Shown: piece by piece, positions 12,464-42,229 of the stretch
Layout of the letters: each line of letters opens with the position of its first letter
Position numbering within the stretch: position 1 is the first letter of the stretch
Source: an uncultured Bacteroidota bacterium
Lineage (GTDB): Bacteria; Bacteroidota; Bacteroidia; AKYH767-A; 2013-40CM-41-45
Direction: 5' to 3'
Length of the DNA: 64,000 nt
NCBI GenBank assembly: GCA_937871435.1
Contig: CALMQM010000102.1
Location: forward strand, 1 to 64,000
Position numbers and translations under genes: made by a program
Notes under the pieces: model-generated
Told to the model about the DNA's origin: nothing
The model's database searches: none
Seen by the model: the letters and a program-made list of their open reading frames with translations, nothing else

Positions 12464-12542
12464 AACAGAATCAGAATCAGAATCAGAAACAGAAACAGAA
12501 ACAGAAACAGAAACAGTATTAGAAACAGAATCAGAAACAGAG
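12464..12542. repeat. Hexamer microsatellite (AGAAAC/AGAATC)n
   Basis: About thirteen tandem 6-bp units alternating between AGAATC and AGAAAC, with one AGTATT and a degenerate last unit. It lies 57 nt after the saccharopine dehydrogenase-like stop and 49 nt before the 3' end of the tRNA-Arg gene. The short reading frames crossing it (RIRIRN-type peptides) are repeat artefacts. Confidence 0.9.
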
Positions 12543-26997: not shown

Positions 26998-28954
26998 AGA
27001 TACCATCGACAGAATTTTCAATACTGCACGTATTGAAGAAGTCGTAGGTGACTTTGTTCCCCTCAAAAAAAGAGGTGTGAACCTGCTCGGACTTTGCCCT
27101 TTTCACAATGAAAAAACTCCAAGCTTCAATGTAAATCCGGTACGAAATATTTACAAATGTTTCGGTTGCGGGAAAGGCGGCAATGCCGTGAACTTCATCA
27201 TGGAGCACGAGCAATACAGTTATCCTGAAGCGCTCCGTTATCTCGCAAAAAAATACAACATCGAGATTGAAGAATCTCTTCCTGATCCGAAGGAAGAATT
27301 GATGCGTGACGAAAAAGAAAGTTTATTCGTCATCAATACATTTGCCCAAAAAACTTTTTCCGAATCATTGTTCGATACTGAAGAAGGTCGATCCATCGGC
27401 TTAAGTTATTTTAAAGAGCGAGGATTTACGGAAGACACCATTCGCAAATTTCAACTGGGATATTCCCTCAATGAATGGAGTGCATTTACAGATCTCGCTT
27501 TGAAAAACGGATACAAGGAAGAATTTCTGGAGAAAACCGGGCTCATGATTATAAATGATGCCGGAAAAAAATACGACAGGTTCCGTGGTCGTGTCATGTT
27601 TCCGATTCACAACCTGAGTGGAAGAGTAATCGGTTTTGGTGGTCGTGTACTGAAGAAAGATGAAAAGTCTGCCAAGTATGTCAACTCTCCGGAATCTGAA
27701 ATCTATCATAAGAGTCAGTCATTATACGGAATCTACTTCGCCAAAAAAGCCATCGTCCAGCGCGACACCTGTTATCTTGTAGAAGGATACACCGATGTTA
27801 TTTCTCTGCATCAGTCGGGCATAGAAAACGTAGTAGCCTCATCCGGCACTTCCCTGACAGTAGAACATATCCGACTCATTGGTCGCTACACCAAGAACAT
27901 TACTGTACTCTACGATGGTGATGCAGCCGGAATTAAGGCATCAATCAGAGGGATCGATCTGATTCTCGAAGAAGGCCTGAATGTCAAAGTAGTGCTTTTT
28001 CCTGATGGCGATGATCCGGATTCTTATAGCCGAAAACACAGTCACAGTGAACTGCTCGATTTTGTCAATACCCACGCACGCGACTTCGTCATGTTCAAGA
28101 CAAGTCTGCTGCTTGATGAAGTAAAAAATGATCCGGTAAGAAAAGCAGGTTTGATTCGTGATGTGGTGGAAACCATCGCTCGCATTCCGGATCCTATTAT
28201 CCGCTCGATGTATCTGAAACAATCGAGTGCCATGATGGACATTGATGAGAATTTGCTCATCACGGAACTCAATAAAATTCGCAGACAGGCATTGAAGAAA
28301 GAAATGCCTGCGAATGATATTGAAGAACTGTTACCGGAAATTCTTGTTACGCATAAACAACAGGCGGAAGATCTGAGTACAGAAATTCAGGAAAGAAATA
28401 TTATTCGACTTCTTTTCAATTTTGGCAATCACGAATTACATTTTTATGAGGATGTAGAAAATCCAGATCGTCCGGGACACATGGAAACAAAGGATATTGT
28501 TGTGAAGGTTTCCCGATACATCGTCGATGAAATTGCTCATGATGATCTTGTTTTTGAGAACAAATTGTATGATCTCATTTTACAATCCTATACCAGACTG
28601 GTAACAGAACAAAATGAGATTGATCCGCAGGTGTTTCTGAACTCCGAGGATCCTCAGGTGAGTGAACTTACTGTTGAATTGTTGAGCCCAAGATATTTTC
28701 TCAGCGAAAACTGGGAAGTGATGCACAAAATCATTGTTCCCGTTGAAGAAGTGGTACTGAAAGATGCTGTCGAAAAAGCAGTTTTTCATTTAAAGAATAA
28801 AAAAGTACTCAAGATGATAGACGACAATCAGAAAAAAATCAAAGCCGCGCATGAAACCGGTTCTGATTATACAGAACTGATGGAGATGGAAAAAAAATTA
28901 CAAAATGTAAAAATGGAAATCTCTAAGGTGTTGGGAATTGATATTTTGAAATAG
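26987..28954 (+). CDS. dnaG: DNA primase DnaG
   Basis: Makes RNA primers at the replication fork. The 655-residue length is normal. The CHC2 zinc finger is C37-x2-H40 with C58-x2-C61 (LCPFHNEKTPSFNV, then YKCFGCGKGG). The Toprim catalytic core has VEGYTDVISLHQSG and the acidic YDGDAAGIKAS. The DnaB-binding C-terminal region is present. Its ATG overlaps the upstream hydrolase gene by 11 nt. The last 10 nt of the gene, including the TAG stop, are the first copy of a 36-bp tandem repeat that continues downstream. Confidence 0.96.
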   Translation: MISKDTIDRIFNTARIEEVVGDFVPLKKRGVNLLGLCPFHNEKTPSFNVNPVRNIYKCFGCGKGGNAVNFIMEHEQYSYPEALRYLAKKYNIEIEESLPDPKEELMRDEKESLFVINTFAQKTFSESLFDTEEGRSIGLSYFKERGFTEDTIRKFQLGYSLNEWSAFTDLALKNGYKEEFLEKTGLMIINDAGKKYDRFRGRVMFPIHNLSGRVIGFGGRVLKKDEKSAKYVNSPESEIYHKSQSLYGIYFAKKAIVQRDTCYLVEGYTDVISLHQSGIENVVASSGTSLTVEHIRLIGRYTKNITVLYDGDAAGIKASIRGIDLILEEGLNVKVVLFPDGDDPDSYSRKHSHSELLDFVNTHARDFVMFKTSLLLDEVKNDPVRKAGLIRDVVETIARIPDPIIRSMYLKQSSAMMDIDENLLITELNKIRRQALKKEMPANDIEELLPEILVTHKQQAEDLSTEIQERNIIRLLFNFGNHELHFYEDVENPDRPGHMETKDIVVKVSRYIVDEIAHDDLVFENKLYDLILQSYTRLVTEQNEIDPQVFLNSEDPQVSELTVELLSPRYFLSENWEVMHKIIVPVEEVVLKDAVEKAVFHLKNKKVLKMIDDNQKKIKAAHETGSDYTELMEMEKKLQNVKMEISKVLGIDILK

Positions 28955-29045
28955 GGACAAGGGACCGGGGACGAGGGACGTTTGAAATAGGGACAAGGGA
29001 CCGGGGACGAGGGACGTTTGAAATAGGGACTGGGGACGAGGGACG
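28945..29045. repeat. 36-bp tandem repeat that includes the dnaG stop codon, built of GGGACNN heptamers
   Basis: Three copies start at 28945, 28981 and 29017. Each begins TTTGAAATAG, which in copy 1 is the end of dnaG with its TAG stop, followed by GGGACAA, GGGACCG, GGGACGA and GGGACG. The first two copies are identical over 36 bp. The third is 7 bp shorter, exactly one heptamer. Copies 2 and 3 thus carry duplicates of the gene's 3' end. Confidence 0.92.
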
Positions 29046-29061
29046 ATTAATAATTTTCAAT

Positions 29062-34345: not shown

Positions 34346-35620
34346 TCAGGATTTTTTCTTGTATGGTCGAATAATCAGTCGGATCGCACGATCGTAGCTG
34401 AAATAATTCCATACCCAGTTGATGAGCACTACCAACCTGTTCCGAAATCCCGCGAGCAACATCAGGTGAATAAATAACCAGGAAATCCAGGCAAAGAAAC
34501 CTTTCAGGTGCAGGAATTTTAAATCTGCCACTGCCCTGCTTCTTCCAATGGTTGCCATTGTTCCTTTATCGAAGTAACGGAATGCTTTCCATTTTTCATT
34601 TGATGAAAGATTCAGATTAGACGCGAGAAGTTTTCCCTGCTGCATGGCAACTGGAGCAAGCATCGGATGAGGTTTGCCATCACCTGCATCCATCGCTGCG
34701 AGATCACCAATAACATAAATATTTTCAAAACCGATCACCCGATTGTACGCGTCAGTTTGAATGCGATTCCCGGGTTTTATTACCTCCGCATGAAATCCCG
34801 GGATAGCATTGCCCATCACTCCGGCTGTCCAGATGAGTGAACGTGTCAACACTTTTTCACCGTTGCTGAGCACAGCAATCTGACCGTCATAGCGCTCTAA
34901 TCTGATTCCGGTAAGAATTCGAATTCCTAATTGTTCGAGCTGAATTTTTGCATGACGGGATGAAAAATCTGACATCACATTTAGTACCTGTTGGGATGCT
35001 TCAACGAGTGTTATGTTCATCAGATTGAGATCCAGTTCAGGGTAGTCATTCGGGAGAACATGCTTTTTTAATTCAGCAAGAGCTCCGGCTATTTCCACAC
35101 CGGTAGGACCTGCACCGGTCACCACGAAATTCATGAGACTTCTTTTCTCTTCAGGATCTTTACTCAGCAATGCTGTTTCAAAATTCTGAAGGATGAAACT
35201 TCGCATATCCAGTGCGTCTGTCACTGATTTCAGTGATAAGGAATGATTTTCAGTTTCTTTATTTCCGAAAAAGTTTGTTCTTGATCCTGTAGCAAGAACG
35301 AGAATGTCATAAGGCAGTAGTCCGATGGAAGAATGTACCACGTTTTGTGCTGGATCAAGTCTTTCTACTTCTGCCAGCCGAAACATAACTTCGCTTTTTT
35401 TCTGAAATATTTTTCTCAGTGGATAGGCTACGGAATCCGGCTCCAATCCACCTGTCGCGACCTGATACAATAAAGGCTGGAAAGTGAAATAATTCTGTTT
35501 GTCAACCACAAGGACTTCATACTTTCTCGTATTCAATCTCCGCCCGATTTCAATACCCGCAAAGCCGGCACCGACAATAAGCACACGTTTCTTGTGATTG
35601 TTTTTTGAAAAAATATCCAT
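34346..35620 (-). CDS. ndh: Type II NADH dehydrogenase (NDH-2)
   Basis: Single-subunit FAD enzyme that passes electrons from NADH to quinone without pumping protons; 424 residues. The FAD-binding dinucleotide loop VLIVGAGFAGIEIGRRL lies near residues 14-30. The active-site pattern YFTFQPLLYQVATGGLEPDSVA is typical of NDH-2. The NADH loop VVTGAGPTGVEIAGALAEL follows, then IYVIGDLAAMD. The C-terminal hydrophobic helices (FAWISWLFIHLMLLAGF) would anchor it to the membrane. It could recycle the NADH produced by the formate dehydrogenase of this window (inference). The start diverges into the large repeat-bearing intergenic region. Confidence 0.93.
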   Translation of the reverse strand: MDIFSKNNHKKRVLIVGAGFAGIEIGRRLNTRKYEVLVVDKQNYFTFQPLLYQVATGGLEPDSVAYPLRKIFQKKSEVMFRLAEVERLDPAQNVVHSSIGLLPYDILVLATGSRTNFFGNKETENHSLSLKSVTDALDMRSFILQNFETALLSKDPEEKRSLMNFVVTGAGPTGVEIAGALAELKKHVLPNDYPELDLNLMNITLVEASQQVLNVMSDFSSRHAKIQLEQLGIRILTGIRLERYDGQIAVLSNGEKVLTRSLIWTAGVMGNAIPGFHAEVIKPGNRIQTDAYNRVIGFENIYVIGDLAAMDAGDGKPHPMLAPVAMQQGKLLASNLNLSSNEKWKAFRYFDKGTMATIGRSRAVADLKFLHLKGFFAWISWLFIHLMLLAGFRNRLVVLINWVWNYFSYDRAIRLIIRPYKKKS

Positions 35621-35959
35621 TGGATATAAAAGAAATAATTGAGTTCGGTACTTGGAATTATTATGCTGTGAGCATGCGTAAAGATGGAATGTTACTGAGC
35701 TTCAAGACTCAAATTTAGTCAATCCAAATCCCTTGAGCTAATTCTTTAACTCAATCTTGTGGGTCAACGGACTTTGCATTTCAGAAAACCAATAACTATG
35801 AATTTTTCTATTTGAATTTTTCGATATATGCTAAGAATGAAATTGTCCTTTCAGTTTCGAGATGCAATACATGGATACTCTCCAAGAAACAAAGTGTTGC
35901 TTGACTATAATTTTGCTCTGGTGGGATCAGGATTGTTCGTTCTGATCTTCGTTTAAATA
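35621..35959. other. Intergenic region between ndh and the hairpin array
   Basis: AT-rich, no confident gene. A minus-strand frame at 35808-35999 begins inside the first repeat (MYNPTKPNPEGMKLFK) and continues 47 codons into unique sequence (IPPEQNYSQATLCFLES). It might be a real small peptide gene whose 5' end is a repeat, but there is no support beyond openness. The ndh promoter must lie in the first ~100 nt; no clear -7 box was found. Confidence 0.5.
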
Positions 35960-36590
35960 ATTTCATCCCTTCGGGATTTGGCTTTGTTGGGTTATACATT
36001 CTCTATAATAATTTCATCCCTTCGGGATTTAGGTTGTGGTTTATGCATTTTCTATACCAGTATCATCCCTTCGGGATTTATTTGTACTGGGTTTGATTTC
36101 ATTTACAATAATTTCATCCCTTCGGGATTTGGCTTTGTTGGGCTATACGTTCTCTATAATAATTTCATCCCTTCGGGATTTGGCTTTTTTGGGTTATACG
36201 TTCTCTATAATAATTTCATCCCTTCGGGATTTGGCTTTTTTGGGTTATACGTTCTCTATAATAATTTCATCCCTTCGGGATTTATTTGTGCTGGGTTTGA
36301 TTTCGTTTACAGTAATTTCATCCCTTCTGGATTTGGCTTTGTTGGGTTGTACGTTCTCTATAATAATTTCATCCCTTCGGGATTTATTTATGCTGGCTTT
36401 AAATTCGTCTACAATAATTTCATCCCTTCGGGATTTAGGTTGTGGTTTATTCATTTTCTATACCAGTATCATCCCTTCGGGATTTATATGTGCTGGGTTT
36501 GATTTCGTTTACAGTAATTTCATCCCTTCTGGATTTGGTTTTGTTGGGCTGTACGTTCTCTATAATAGTTCCATCCCTTCGGAATTTGAT
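35960..36590. repeat. Hairpin tandem array: 13 copies of ATCCCTTCGGGAT at a 51-bp period
   Basis: Thirteen palindromes start at 35965, 36016, 36065, 36116, 36167, 36218, 36269, 36320, 36371, 36422, 36471, 36522 and 36573. Spacing is 51 bp except after copies 2 and 10, where it is 49. Each palindrome can form a 5-bp ATCCC/GGGAT stem with a TTC loop. Copies 8 and 12 read TTCTGGAT and copy 13 reads TTCGGAAT. The sequences between fall into three families: A (GGCTTTGTTGGGTTATACGT), B (AGGTTGTGGTTTATGCATTT) and C (ATTTGTGCTGGGTTTGATTT), in order A B C A A A C A C B C A. Units 5 and 6 are identical. The long frames across it arise because 51 is a multiple of 3. Confidence 0.95.
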
Positions 36591-36915: not shown

Positions 36916-36923
36916 TATATTTG
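36916..36923 (+). promoter_or_regulatory. -7 box of the rimP-nusA-infB operon
   Basis: TATATTTG is an exact TAnnTTTG match. Transcription should start near 36930, giving a leader of about 50 nt to the rimP ATG. A terminator-like hairpin sits inside that leader. Confidence 0.6.
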
Positions 36924-36949
36924 CATCCGAATTTACGGAGATAATAGAA

Positions 36950-36971
36950 GGGGACGACAGTCCCCTTTTTT
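36950..36971 (+). terminator. Leader terminator (candidate attenuator) upstream of rimP
   Basis: Stem GGGGAC/GTCCCC (36950-36955 and 36960-36965) with loop GACA, followed by TTTTTT (36966-36971). It lies about 20 nt after the predicted start site and 10 nt before the rimP ATG, so it is in the operon leader rather than at a gene end. Confidence 0.7.
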
Positions 36972-36981
36972 ATTGAGCAAC

Positions 36982-37455
36982 ATGACATTAAACGAACAGA
37001 TAACTGCCCTGGTGGAAGAGAAAATTGCCGGTAGCGACAATTTCCTGGTGGAAGTAAAAGTGAGTCCGGCCAAGGTGGTGGTACTGATTGATCATCCTTC
37101 CGGAATCAAAATTGAAGATTGTGTTTCTGTATCTCGCTTTCTTCAGGAAAAGTTAGACTCAACAGATGTGTTCGAAAGACATGAACTGGAAGTGGGTTCG
37201 CCGGGTATGGAGGAACCACTGAAAGTATTGAAACAATACCATAAACGCCTCGGGAAAAACATCAGCGTTCTTACACTGGATGGTGTGCGACGTAACGGAA
37301 TCCTGAAAAACGCCAACGATGATGGCATCGACATTGAAGAAACAGTTATCGTAAAAGAAGGCAAGAAAAAAGAAAAACAAGTTCAACATAATTTTATTCC
37401 ATTCACTAACATTAAAGAAACTAAAGTCATCTTCTCATTCAACAAAATCATTTGA
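36982..37455 (+). CDS. rimP: RimP, ribosome maturation factor
   Basis: Needed for 30S subunit maturation. The 157 residues from ATG 36982 (MTLNEQITALVEEKIAG) show the RimP pattern: VVLIDHPSGIKIEDCVSVSRFL, HELEVGSPGMEEPLK, then the C-terminal SH3-like domain with ISVLTLDGVRRNGILK and NFIPFTNIKETKVIF. The frame is open further upstream to 36784, but that stretch covers the terminator and promoter and is rejected. It heads the conserved rimP-nusA-infB operon, with nusA starting 5 nt later. Confidence 0.95.
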   Translation: MTLNEQITALVEEKIAGSDNFLVEVKVSPAKVVVLIDHPSGIKIEDCVSVSRFLQEKLDSTDVFERHELEVGSPGMEEPLKVLKQYHKRLGKNISVLTLDGVRRNGILKNANDDGIDIEETVIVKEGKKKEKQVQHNFIPFTNIKETKVIFSFNKII

Positions 37456-37460
37456 TCACA

Positions 37461-38726
37461 ATGAAAAAGAACGCACCCGCTGCTGATAAGAACGAGCACA
37501 CAGAATTGGTTGAAGCATTCTCGGAATTTAAAGATCTGAAGAATATTGACCGTGCCAGTATGATGAGCATCCTTGAGGATGTTTTCAAAAACATGCTGAA
37601 AAAGAAATATGGCACAGCTGATAACTTTGACATCGTCATCAATACCGATAAAGGTGACCTGCAGGCTCTGCGCAACCGTTTAATTGTGGAAGATGGCACG
37701 GTAGAAGATCCGAGTACGCAAATTGAATATTCTGAAGCTGTAAGAATTCAGCCCGACTTTGAAGTTGGCGAAGAAGTGTCGGAAGAAGTTCGTTTCATGG
37801 ATTTTGGAAGACGCGCTGTATTGGCCGCTCGTCAGAATCTCATGGCGCGTGTTCAGGAATTGGAGAAAGAAGGTATTTTCAGAAAATACAAAGACCGTGT
37901 AGGCGAAATCATCACCGGTGAAGTTTACCAGACCTGGAAAAAAGAAACTCTTGTAATGGATGACGACGGTAACGAACTGATTTTACCAAAGTCTGAACAA
38001 ATCGGCAGTGACTTTTTCAAAAAAGGTGACAGCGTTCGCGCGGTGGTTTTGCGTGTAGAGATGATTAATGGTACTCCAAAAATTATTTTGTCGCGCACCT
38101 CTCCCCTGTTCCTCGAGAAATTATTCGAACTCGAAGTTCCGGAAGTATTCGACGGTCTGATCACAATCAAGAAAATCGTTCGCGAACCTGGTGAGCGCGC
38201 TAAAGTTGCCGTTGAAAGTTATGATGATCGTATTGATCCGGTTGGAGCCTGTGTGGGTATGAAAGGATCGAGGATACACGGTATCGTACGCGAGCTGAGA
38301 AATGAGAATATTGATGTGATCAATTTCACGACCAACAGTCCGCTCTTTATTTCCCGTGCTCTGGCTCCGGCCAAGATCACATCCATTAAACTGGACGATG
38401 AGAAAAAACGTGCATCTGTATTCCTGAAACCGGATCAGGTTTCACTGGCAATCGGAAAAGGCGGACACAACATCAAGCTTGCAGGTAAACTGACAGGTTA
38501 TGAAATCGATGTGTACCGTGATACAGATGATGACAGCGAAGACGTTGACCTGGATGAATTTGCAGATGAAATCGAACCATGGATCATCGATGAATTGAAA
38601 ACCATCGGTTGTGACACGGCAAAGAGTGTACTGGAATTACCGGTTGAAGACCTGGTAAAACGGACCGACCTTGAAGAAGAAACTATTAAGGAAGTGGTGC
38701 GGATTTTACGCTCTGAATTTGAATAA
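37461..38726 (+). CDS. nusA: NusA, transcription termination/antitermination factor
   Basis: Binds RNA polymerase and nascent RNA, and promotes pausing and intrinsic termination. The 421 residues run as: N-terminal polymerase-binding domain (to ~125), S1 domain (GEIITGEVYQTWKKETLVMD), and two KH domains (VGACVGMKGSRIHGIVRELR with the GMKGSR loop; LAIGKGGHNIKLAGKLTGYEID). A C-terminal helix-hairpin-helix segment (IDELKTIGCDTAKSVLEL) ends it. The start ATG 37461 is preferred to the TTG 37452, which would overlap rimP. Because NusA enhances intrinsic termination, the hairpin in the operon leader suggests autoregulation (inference). Confidence 0.96.
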   Translation: MKKNAPAADKNEHTELVEAFSEFKDLKNIDRASMMSILEDVFKNMLKKKYGTADNFDIVINTDKGDLQALRNRLIVEDGTVEDPSTQIEYSEAVRIQPDFEVGEEVSEEVRFMDFGRRAVLAARQNLMARVQELEKEGIFRKYKDRVGEIITGEVYQTWKKETLVMDDDGNELILPKSEQIGSDFFKKGDSVRAVVLRVEMINGTPKIILSRTSPLFLEKLFELEVPEVFDGLITIKKIVREPGERAKVAVESYDDRIDPVGACVGMKGSRIHGIVRELRNENIDVINFTTNSPLFISRALAPAKITSIKLDDEKKRASVFLKPDQVSLAIGKGGHNIKLAGKLTGYEIDVYRDTDDDSEDVDLDEFADEIEPWIIDELKTIGCDTAKSVLELPVEDLVKRTDLEEETIKEVVRILRSEFE

Positions 38727-38828: not shown

Positions 38829-41783
38829 ATGGCAGAAGCAGAAAAGACGATCCGATTAAGTAAAGCGATCAAAGAGTTCAATTTGAGCCTTGATCATATC
38901 GTGGAATTCCTGAACAAAAAGGGATTCACGATAGAAAGCAACCCCAACACCAAGTTGCCCGGGGACGCTTATGCTTTGCTGCTGAAGGAATTTCAGGGCG
39001 ATAAAAGTGCAAAAGAAGAGGCTGTCCAACTGTCTCAAACCAAATTGCGCAAGGACAATCCTGTTGTCCTCGACGCTGAAGGAACTAAGAAGACTACTTC
39101 TAAGAAGGATGACGAATCTTCCGAGATTCTCATCAAGAACATGAGTGTAGCGGATTATCTCAAGGAAGATAAACCTAAAAAGAAAGAAGAACCCAAAGCG
39201 GAAAAACCTGCGAAAGCCAGGGAACCTGAGCCTGAAGTTATTAAGGCGAGTGCCGAAAAAGTAGAAGGACCTAAAGTTGTCGGCCGAATTGAGATTGAAG
39301 ACGAAACTTCCAAGGCTGACAAAAAGAAAAAGACAACTACAAAGAAAAAAGCGGAAACTGAAACTCCACCTGTAAGTCCTGCTGTAGAGGAAGAAAAGCC
39401 GGCTAAAAAAGTTGTAAAGAAGAAAAAGGAAGAAGAACCTGTTGCTGAAGCTCCTGTTGAAACGGAATCAATCAGTACTCCTGTAGCTGAAACCATTGTA
39501 CCAACAGAGGTTGCACCAATAGCGGCCGAAGAGAAAGAGCAAAAAACAGAAGAAACAAAACCAACGGAAGCTGCACCAGAAGAACCAGAGGTTCCAGGTG
39601 AACAACAAAAGGATGAAATCCATCGTGTTCGTTTTGATAAATTAAGCGGTCCGACTGTTCTTGGTAAAATTGAACTTCCGGTTGATCCGCCAAAGAGAAA
39701 ACCTGTCGCTTCATCCACAGGATCAGTTGACGATAAAAAGAAAAAAAGGAAACGTACTGACCGTAAAGCAGGAGGACAACCAATTCCTTCTGAAAAACGT
39801 GATCAACCCAGAAATACTGGCACTTCCGGCCCACCGCGCAATCGCCCGGCCGGCAGCAGACCGCCTGTTGGTAAATCAGAACCTTCTGAAAAAGAAATTC
39901 AGGATCAAATCAAGGCAACTCTTGCCCGTCTGAGCGGTGGAGGTAAATCACGCTCTTCAAAAATCAGAAAAGCCAGACGTGATGAGCGCGCTGAAGTGAA
40001 GAGAGAACAAGCCGAAGAAGCAGCAGGAAACAAGACAATTAAAGTTACTGAATTCGTTACCGCGAATGAACTCGCGAAACTCATGGACGTACAAGTGACT
40101 GATGTTATTTCAACATTCATGTCGCTTGGAATGTTCGTCTCGATCAATCAGCGTCTGGATGCTGAAGCGTTGCGTGTAGTAGCGGAGGAATTCGGATTCG
40201 AAGTGGAATTCGTTTCTGCGGATGTACAGGAAACTATCGGTACAGAAGAAGACCTTCCTGAAGATCTGAAACCACGTTCTCCTATTGTTACTGTGATGGG
40301 ACACGTTGACCATGGTAAAACTTCACTCCTCGACTACATCCGTAAAGCGAATGTAATTGCAGGTGAAGCGGGTGGAATCACACAGCACATCGGGGCATAT
40401 TCCGTACAACTGGAAAATGGAAAAACAATCACTTTCCTTGATACTCCGGGTCACGAAGCTTTTACAGCGATGCGTGCACGTGGAGCAAAAGTGACAGACG
40501 TAGCCATCATCGTGATTGCCGCTGACGACAACGTGATGCCTCAGACGATTGAAGCTATCAACCACGCACAAGCAGCCAATGTACCAATGGTGTTTGCGAT
40601 CAACAAAGTAGATAAGCCGGATGCAAATCCGGAACGCATAAAAGAACAACTTGCGAAAATGAACATCCTGGTTGAAGACTGGGGTGGAAAATATCAGTGT
40701 CAGGAAATTTCCGCGAAGAAAGGAATGAACGTGGAAGCTTTGCTTGAAAAAGTATTGCTCGAAGCTGAACTCCTCGACCTGAAAGCAAATTCCGCACGTC
40801 GTGCAAATGGTACAGTAATCGAATCCATGCTTGACAAAGGACGTGGATACGTGATGACAGTGTTGATCCAGGGAGGGACATTGCATGTTGGTGATGTGAT
40901 TCTTGCAGGATGCTACAGCGGTCGCGTAAAAGCTCTGTTCAATGAACGTGGTTTCCGTATTAAGGAAGCCGGTCCTTCCGCGCCTGCGCAGGTGCTCGGT
41001 ATGACTGGCGCTCCGCAAGCGGGTGATCTGTTCAATGTAATGGAAGATGAGCGGGAAGCACGCGACATCGCGAACAAACGTTTGCAGTTGCAACGTGAAC
41101 AGGGTATCCGTACACAGAAACACATTACTCTGGATGAAATCGGTCGTCGTCTTGCTATCGGTAACTTCAAAGAACTGAACGTAATCGTAAAAGGTGACGT
41201 GGACGGTTCTATCGAAGCACTTGCAGATTCACTTTTAAAATTGTCTACACAGGAAATTCAAATCAATATTATTCACAAGTCTGTTGGAGCGATTACAGAA
41301 TCAGACGTGTTACTTGCTTCTGCTTCCAACGCGATTGTGATCGGATTCCAGGTCAGACCTTCTGTCAATGCGAGAAAACTCGCCGAGACAGAACAGATTG
41401 AAATCCGTTTGTATTCCATCATCTACGATGCAATCAATGAATTGAAAGCAGCGATGGAAGGAATGCTTGCTCCGGAATTCCAGGAGAAAATTGTCGGTAA
41501 TATTGAAATTCGTGACATCTTCAAAATCCCGAAAGTGGGAACTATCGCGGGTTGTATGGTGCTCGATGGAAAAGTATCCCGGAATACTAAAGTACGCGTA
41601 GTACGCGATGGTATCGTTGTATATTCCGGTGAGCTTGGTTCATTGAAACGATTCAAGGATGATGTGAAAGAAGTTTCCGCAGGTTACGAATGCGGATTAA
41701 GCGTTCACAACTTCCAGGATCTGAAAGTTGGTGATGTAATCGAAGGGTACGAACAAGTTGCAGTGAAACGAACTCTGGCTTAA
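38829..41783 (+). CDS. infB: Translation initiation factor IF-2
   Basis: GTPase that places initiator tRNA on the 30S subunit. The 984-residue length is in the range for the family in Bacteroidota. The N-terminal IF2_N domain is at residues 1-60 (IRLSKAIKEFNLSLDHIVEF). A ~350-residue low-complexity region of Lys/Glu/Pro/Ala follows, then an Arg/Lys-rich linker. The GTPase domain has G1 GHVDHGKT near 491, DTPGHEAFTAMRARG (G3) and NKVDKPDANPE (G4). Domains II to IV follow and end EGYEQVAVKRTLA. It ends the operon; a strong terminator lies 28 nt after the stop. Confidence 0.97.
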   Translation: MAEAEKTIRLSKAIKEFNLSLDHIVEFLNKKGFTIESNPNTKLPGDAYALLLKEFQGDKSAKEEAVQLSQTKLRKDNPVVLDAEGTKKTTSKKDDESSEILIKNMSVADYLKEDKPKKKEEPKAEKPAKAREPEPEVIKASAEKVEGPKVVGRIEIEDETSKADKKKKTTTKKKAETETPPVSPAVEEEKPAKKVVKKKKEEEPVAEAPVETESISTPVAETIVPTEVAPIAAEEKEQKTEETKPTEAAPEEPEVPGEQQKDEIHRVRFDKLSGPTVLGKIELPVDPPKRKPVASSTGSVDDKKKKRKRTDRKAGGQPIPSEKRDQPRNTGTSGPPRNRPAGSRPPVGKSEPSEKEIQDQIKATLARLSGGGKSRSSKIRKARRDERAEVKREQAEEAAGNKTIKVTEFVTANELAKLMDVQVTDVISTFMSLGMFVSINQRLDAEALRVVAEEFGFEVEFVSADVQETIGTEEDLPEDLKPRSPIVTVMGHVDHGKTSLLDYIRKANVIAGEAGGITQHIGAYSVQLENGKTITFLDTPGHEAFTAMRARGAKVTDVAIIVIAADDNVMPQTIEAINHAQAANVPMVFAINKVDKPDANPERIKEQLAKMNILVEDWGGKYQCQEISAKKGMNVEALLEKVLLEAELLDLKANSARRANGTVIESMLDKGRGYVMTVLIQGGTLHVGDVILAGCYSGRVKALFNERGFRIKEAGPSAPAQVLGMTGAPQAGDLFNVMEDEREARDIANKRLQLQREQGIRTQKHITLDEIGRRLAIGNFKELNVIVKGDVDGSIEALADSLLKLSTQEIQINIIHKSVGAITESDVLLASASNAIVIGFQVRPSVNARKLAETEQIEIRLYSIIYDAINELKAAMEGMLAPEFQEKIVGNIEIRDIFKIPKVGTIAGCMVLDGKVSRNTKVRVVRDGIVVYSGELGSLKRFKDDVKEVSAGYECGLSVHNFQDLKVGDVIEGYEQVAVKRTLA

Positions 41784-41811
41784 GAAGCCTGCGTTACTTA
41801 AATAAAAGAGA

Positions 41812-41836
41812 GGCCATCGATGAGATGGCCTTTTTT
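41812..41836 (+). terminator. Intrinsic terminator of the rimP-nusA-infB operon
   Basis: Stem GGCCATC/GATGGCC (41812-41818 and 41824-41830) with loop GATGA, followed by TTTTTT. The heptamer repeat array begins immediately after the T-run. Confidence 0.93.
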
Positions 41837-41934
41837 GTTGGTTGTTGGTTGTTGGTTGTTGGTTGATGGTTGTTGGTTGTTGGTTGTTAGTTGTTGGTTG
41901 TTGGTCGATCGTTGTTGGTTGTTGGTTTCGGGTT
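41837..41934. repeat. Heptamer array GTTGGTT, 14 units
   Basis: Fourteen 7-bp units in unbroken phase, mostly GTTGGTT with variants GATGGTT, GTTAGTT, GTTGGTC, GATCGTT and TCGGGTT. It begins on the base after the infB terminator T-run. The minus-strand NQQPTT peptide frame across it is a repeat artefact. Confidence 0.95.
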
Positions 41935-41966
41935 GATATTAATTTAAAAATCCAACTGCCTCTCAC

Positions 41967-42106
41967 ACCTAATACCTAATACTTAGTACCTAATACCTAG
42001 TACTTAGTACCTAATACCTAGTACCTGGTACCTAATACCTAATACCTAGTACCTAGTACCTAATACCTAGCACCCAATACCTAATACCTAGTACCTAATA
42101 CTTAAT
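41967..42106. repeat. Heptamer array ACCTAAT/ACCTAGT, exactly 20 units
   Basis: 140 bp of perfectly phased 7-mers: ACCTAAT and ACCTAGT alternate irregularly, with variants ACTTAGT, ACCTGGT, ACCTAGC, ACCCAAT and ACTTAAT. Most substitutions fall at positions 3 and 6, so the period is kept while the units drift. Confidence 0.96.
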
Positions 42107-42229
42107 CTTGGTTGTCAGTTGTTGGTTGATGGTTGTGTCGCATAAAGCCCCTACCGCCCCACGTCCCTAGCCCCCCCGTCCCTCAACACCTAATACCCAA
42201 TACCTAGTACCTAATACCTTGTACTTAAT
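42107..42229. repeat. Mixed heptamer block: GTTGGTT, reverse-oriented GGGAC, and ACCTAAT units
   Basis: 42107-42134 has four more GTTGGTT-type units directly joined to the previous array. About 42150-42185 contains CGTCCCTAG and CCCGTCCCTC, which on the minus strand are GGGAC heptamers like those after dnaG. 42188-42229 is six exact ACCTAAT-type units. The remaining ~35 nt to the SPOR gene stop also reads CCCCTCGTCCCC. Confidence 0.85.

Follow-up and report, generated by a model that had tools for sequence, protein, structure and literature searches.

How is the rimP-nusA-infB operon controlled when its promoter is followed at once by what appears to be a terminator? This arrangement occurs in a 64,000-nt stretch of DNA from an uncultured Bacteroidota bacterium, the whole of which we refer to as the window. 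The elements ahead of the operon and the operon itself are as follows.

A predicted promoter and terminator ahead of rimP

36916..36923, + strand: -7 promoter box TATATTTG, an exact TAnnTTTG by sequence
36929..36930, + strand: probable transcription start site, a purine (G or A) lying 5-7 nt past the box, placed according to where the box lies and which bases start sites prefer
36946..36969, + strand: terminator hairpin, from the fold, a stem scan and covariation in a related family
36966..36971, + strand: T-run (U-tract) of the intrinsic terminator, six T, from the sequence and the one-sided T content across the phylum
36982..37455, + strand: rimP, ribosome maturation factor, first gene of the operon (NCBIfam NF002531, 1.7e-34; family-wide matches)
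37461..38726, + strand: nusA, transcription termination factor and likely effector (TIGR01953, 5.9e-115)
38829..41783, + strand: infB, translation initiation factor IF-2 (TIGR00487, 3e-242)
41806..41836, + strand: terminator-like hairpin at the operon end, from a hairpin scan

The NusA and IF-2 matches lie well over the NCBIfam cut-offs; rimP reaches 118.9 bits with its best model, slightly below that model's NCBIfam cut-off of 123. Because the nearest long upstream gene (34346-35620) is on the strand opposite to the operon, operon transcripts are unlikely to come from upstream read-through. Purines are preferred at transcription start sites, and a G or A is available at the expected distance from the box. 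By eye, no clear Bacteroides-type -33 element was found at the site.

The hairpin core AAGGGGAC-GACA-GTCCCCTT (36948-36967) contains GGGGAC (36950-36955), the loop GACA (36956-36959) and GTCCCC (36960-36965). Its G-arm begins 26 nt past the end of the box, and ten bases separate the end of the T-run from the rimP ATG (36982). The sequence-only reading had described the box, the hairpin, the six T and the 10-nt gap, and its description is correct in every detail. The predicted RNA (36929-36971) folds into a single hairpin at -16.1 kcal/mol (z -4.3), which none of 200 shuffles equaled, and a 61-nt stretch gives a z of -5.0. Such a combination is rare in the window: among 46 TAnnTTTG boxes on both strands, only the one at 36916-36923 has a hairpin and T-run in the next 70 nt. 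In a cruder control on 49 approximate gene starts in the window, 11 had a box and none had a terminator; the rimP start was misplaced in that list, and the site was missed. A covariance model of 18 sequences, this site included, scored 49.8 bits here and 26.8 bits at the runner-up place in the same genome.

The leader leaves little room for an antiterminator, as had been remarked from the sequence: in its 43 nt, with one predicted hairpin about 20 nt into the RNA, neither an antiterminator nor an upstream open reading frame is visible. Nor does the roughly 20-nt RNA preceding the stem hold an ATG. Coupled translation, once listed among the possible routes of control, does not fit this layout. 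The T-run is reached before the rimP start codon exists, and since that codon is transcribed after the terminator, an escape coupled to translation is unlikely.

Conservation ahead of rimP across the phylum

At the order level, rimP was matched in 40 of 42 genomes; two relatives (L013 and L014) completed a set of 42 upstream regions. The box-then-hairpin pattern is present in 41 of these regions, with a spacing of 14-40 nt (median, 23), and the remaining region, L035, fits the pattern by eye. For wider sampling, NusA served as the query (matched in 79/80 class genomes and 128/128 phylum genomes), and the region upstream of rimP was then read. At the phylum level, 39 genomes outside the class were picked by hand, so as to spread families, from those with a NusA match that lacked a locus. 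The sequence-only reading had pointed to conserved, covarying hairpins upstream of rimP across Bacteroidota as the pattern to look for, and they are there: with L144 corrected, 165 of 170 loci carry a terminator in the 260 nt upstream of rimP, where shuffles would give 7.3, and the stems show compensated changes. The loci are related, and the counts are not independent. A terminator within 90 nt of rimP was found at 155 of 169 loci (3 expected from shuffles), while at the same threshold and distance the opposite strand also scores at 58/169. A -7 box lies within 60 nt upstream of the terminator, at a median of 22 nt, in 134 of the 165 rimP loci with a terminator.

Within the class, 128 of 132 loci have a terminator within 260 nt before rimP; the hairpin is absent from L179, L182, L183, and L220. 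A fifth locus that failed, L212, has an imperfect hairpin by eye. These four loci, together with one 0.5-Mb genome described below, indicate that the hairpin is dispensable in some lineages. L183 and L220, both of one genus, have lost the hairpin, and only a few bases part their -7 box from the start codon of rimP; the sequence suggests that their rimP mRNA is nearly leaderless. In the class sample, the five genomes that lack a hairpin (G200, G219, G234, G203, and G188) all fall within the bottom six of 78 NusA scores; this association of low NusA score with a missing hairpin (Mann-Whitney p, 1e-4) is confounded by generally fast-evolving lineages. G215 was excluded from the comparison, as its contig ends there.

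Before counting, we removed L086, L090, and L099 (duplicates of L001, L016, and L038), L012 (taken to be the same contig as L006, the two being of equal length with matching bases), and L170 (at a contig end). L022 and L027, whose hairpin letters are identical to those of L018 and L023, were kept in the counts and left out of the alignments; L035 was also left out of the alignments. An earlier scan of 128 phylum genomes with the 18-sequence model (E up to 0.5) produced weak matches in many scattered places and was replaced by the protein-based locating of loci.

A known attenuator and a probable NusA feedback

The leader of this operon has been studied in other phyla. The rimP-leader (Naville and Gautheret 2010) is described as the most ubiquitous transcription attenuator (PMC2965389), and our site is its Bacteroidota form; the mechanism itself is not new. 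As in that report, a short terminator with a G-rich 5' arm and a C-rich 3' arm lies in the rimP-nusA-infB 5' UTR: given the start proposed above, the hairpin and six T fall between the box and rimP. The report likewise describes no antiterminator and proposes NusA as the effector (PMC2965389), and here too there is no larger conserved element, one hairpin occupying the 43-nt leader. The published GGGc/gCCC motif (PMC2965389) is GGGGAC/GTCCCC at our site, a loose correspondence in which GGG/CCC and the closing C-G pair agree, with an A-U pair between them. Three features set our case apart from the published description (PMC2965389): a Bacteroidota -7 promoter about 22 nt upstream, a stem sequence that is free across the phylum, and a unit that persists ahead of nusA without rimP.

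Related leaders have been reported in three other bacteria. For Bacillus subtilis, leader attenuation is reported as the means by which NusA regulates its own synthesis (PMC12288461): an intrinsic terminator in the 5' leader curbs transcription into the operon, as it would here (Mondal 2016, via PMC12288461). NusA-stimulated termination is reported for B. subtilis (PMC12288461) and presumed here, and the B. subtilis leader of about 180 nt (PMC2965389) compares with about 50 nt in our case. The Streptococcus agalactiae operon gbs0413-gbs0418 is the same operon with the same promoter-proximal layout, and RNA-seq revealed an RNA terminated at an intrinsic terminator 31 nt after its start (PMC4448216); it differs in phylum, in promoter type, and in that our case is read from sequence alone. 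In Escherichia coli, reduced termination by NusA reportedly brings more transcript of the operon (PMC6511841). By eye, the metY-rimP-nusA-infB leader of E. coli (L224) has GGGCTTTAGGCCC and seven T shortly before rimP; unlike our leader, it is described with two terminators upstream of rimP, several promoters, and an initiator tRNA gene (PMC6511841).

The Rfam family RF01770 (rimP), a 102-position model, is named for the same gene leader. It has no match in the window at its gathering threshold (47 bits), none at the site with E up to 5, and none above the cut-off in any of 21 genomes; its permissive matches lie elsewhere than rimP, all below the cut-off, and were taken for chance. A permissive match of STnc50 over the element (24.6 bits against a gathering threshold of 55) was likewise dismissed. 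Our literature searches on the rimP leader, hairpin or terminator together with nusA retrieved no report on Bacteroidota. The main text of PMC2965389 has no word beginning with "bacteroid," and nusA is not mentioned in the main text of the Bacteroides thetaiotaomicron transcriptome paper (PMC7366714). Our findings add a phylum that has a promoter type of its own to the range of a known autoregulatory attenuator.

NusA stimulates intrinsic termination, and the leader belongs to an operon whose second gene encodes NusA. We consider it probable that the promoter-proximal intrinsic terminator is an attenuator of rimP-nusA-infB through which NusA exerts negative feedback. RNA polymerase would start at about position 36929 and make some 40 nt before the U-tract, where either a short RNA would be released or the polymerase would continue into the operon. 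Because no antiterminator and no upstream open reading frame are visible, the outcome would be set by termination efficiency, and the decision would have to lie with the polymerase, NusA, NusG, or a hairpin-bound factor. NusA made from the operon would raise that efficiency; the more NusA there is, the more often polymerase would stop early and the less operon mRNA would be made, a feedback that would keep NusA, and hence RimP and IF-2, at a set level. Termination itself, its efficiency, and the role of NusA as effector in Bacteroidota are what we infer. The feedback suggested when the sequence was first read finds support in the literature, where a NusA loop acting on this operon has been proposed or reported for E. 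coli, B. subtilis, and S. agalactiae. A stem of 8-10 pairs followed by six T looks a good terminator by itself, with perhaps little need of help from NusA.

The same anatomy, with no sensor or antiterminator in sight, would also suit a constitutive brake, a terminator that cuts operon output to a fixed fraction and is deaf to the operon's products. We regard this as unlikely: a weaker promoter would suffice for that purpose, so a near-universal pairing of promoter and terminator is hard to explain, and feedback is reported for this operon in other bacteria.

Stem changes and the one-sided T-run

If NusA acts through termination strength, does the stem sequence itself matter? In a family that can be aligned by its flanks, two genomes have GAGGCACGC/GCGTGCCTC where close relatives have GAGGGGAC/GTCCCCTC, a swap in which four of the eight pairs are changed on both sides. 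Covariation in the flank-anchored set (11 sequences, one family) is 0.309 versus 0.098 after shuffling, and 0 of 500 shuffles reached the observed value; the double changes come from two related genomes and may represent one event. Other parts of the phylum have yet other stem sequences. A MAFFT alignment of 39 hairpins was set aside because loops of unequal length were misaligned, and the covariance model was built from 18 sequences with equal loops. The covariation in that 18-sequence set was set aside as well: it rests on two outer pairs, and slides of two to three columns score equally high (0.153).

These swaps bear on the idea that a sequence-specific factor other than NusA, a protein or a small molecule, decides termination by binding the GGGGAC/GUCCCC hairpin. 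A GGGGAC stem does occur in 75 of the 155 terminators scored, most of them having a G-rich stem, and the authors of the 2010 study argued for specific recognition from stem conservation (PMC2965389). Yet whole stems have been exchanged with compensation, within one family and phylum-wide, and the reader of the stem would have had to change too, which makes such a factor improbable.

Unlike the stem sequence, the T-run persists. When hairpins were picked without requiring T (138 of 169 loci), T made up 72-89% of the first five bases after the stem versus 14-30% of the eight before it; T content was on the 3' side of the stem in 129 of the 138 hairpins and on the 5' side in 6. Judged by sequence, a paired stem, a one-sided U-tract, and freedom of sequence are what an intrinsic terminator needs. 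A hairpin at the predicted mRNA 5' end and close to a start codon could instead stabilize the mRNA or control translation. This reading is very improbable, since only the 3' side retains a T-run, the hairpin lies 100-210 nt from the start codon in L174, L187, and L191, and the unit is found ahead of nusA too.

The unit stays with nusA where rimP is missing

Which gene does the unit belong to? RimP is not detected everywhere: PF02576 has a match in 371 of 396 class genomes and none in 6 of 11 genomes of one set. We searched for NusA in 18 further genomes without a clear rimP match and found it in 16. Six of these loci, from families f43 and f58, have a divergent rimP in place (L232, L233, L236, L238, L239, and L241) and were excluded from the rimP-less count. 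The rimP-less count rests on 16 nusA loci from seven families, all of genomes without a confident rimP (L153, L155, L234, L235, L237, L240, L095, L098, L230, L231, L242, L243, L244, L245, L213, and L181), in 2 of whose genomes PF02576 matches weakly (G217, E 0.028; G335, E 0.041).

The box-terminator unit persists ahead of nusA where rimP seems gone, which is the new observation of this study: by a machine criterion, box and terminator precede nusA at 14 of the 16 loci. Of the other two, L213 has, by eye, a 4-bp hairpin and six T ahead of nusA, and L181, from a 0.5-Mb genome, has no hairpin there. L098, L230, and L231 represent a single genus and have a spacing of 50-55 nt between box and stem; the hairpin of L231 lies about 290 nt upstream of nusA. 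Since 14 of 16 rimP-less loci keep it, the switch is tied to nusA (or nusA-infB) and not to rimP, which strengthens the link to NusA drawn from the sequence.

The rimP-less genomes amount to a natural deletion experiment on a question that the 2010 study left unanswered: is the effector RimP, or is it NusA? RimP works in 30S maturation, its gene comes first in the operon, and its feedback is named as a possibility in PMC2965389, so the hairpin might have been its autoregulatory target; the rimP-less loci argue against RimP and lead us to reject its feedback as a general mechanism, leaving it scarcely credible.

With NusA as the preferred effector, a broader proposal can be made tentatively, at somewhat under even confidence: that the leader belongs to nusA and not to rimP, serving as a minimal NusA homeostat in nearly all sampled Bacteroidota. 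Selection would then maintain termination strength and not stem sequence; the leader would remain with nusA after the loss of rimP, and would itself disappear mainly from lineages with the most diverged NusA. In that case the leader would make NusA-stimulated termination easy to read out in Bacteroidota, a phylum for which our searches retrieved no study of it, and, at only about 50 nt, would be a compact reporter.

Repeats near the operon and elsewhere in the window

Several repeat arrays were seen along the way. Between the divergent gene and rimP, a tandem array (35956-36588) has about 12 units of 51/102 bp with the motif TTTCATCCCTTCGGGATTT; genome-wide, this motif occurs in 12 copies in that array and in two on contig C113. 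Directly downstream of infB, at 41835-42229, are arrays of the heptamers TTGTTGG and ACCTAAT. Short tandem arrays are also formed by the hexamer AACAGA (13 copies, 12464-12541) and by a G-rich 36-mer (2.8 copies, 28945-29046). In the rimP-less locus L240, short repeats like the CCCTTCGGGATTT motif lie between the leader hairpin and nusA.
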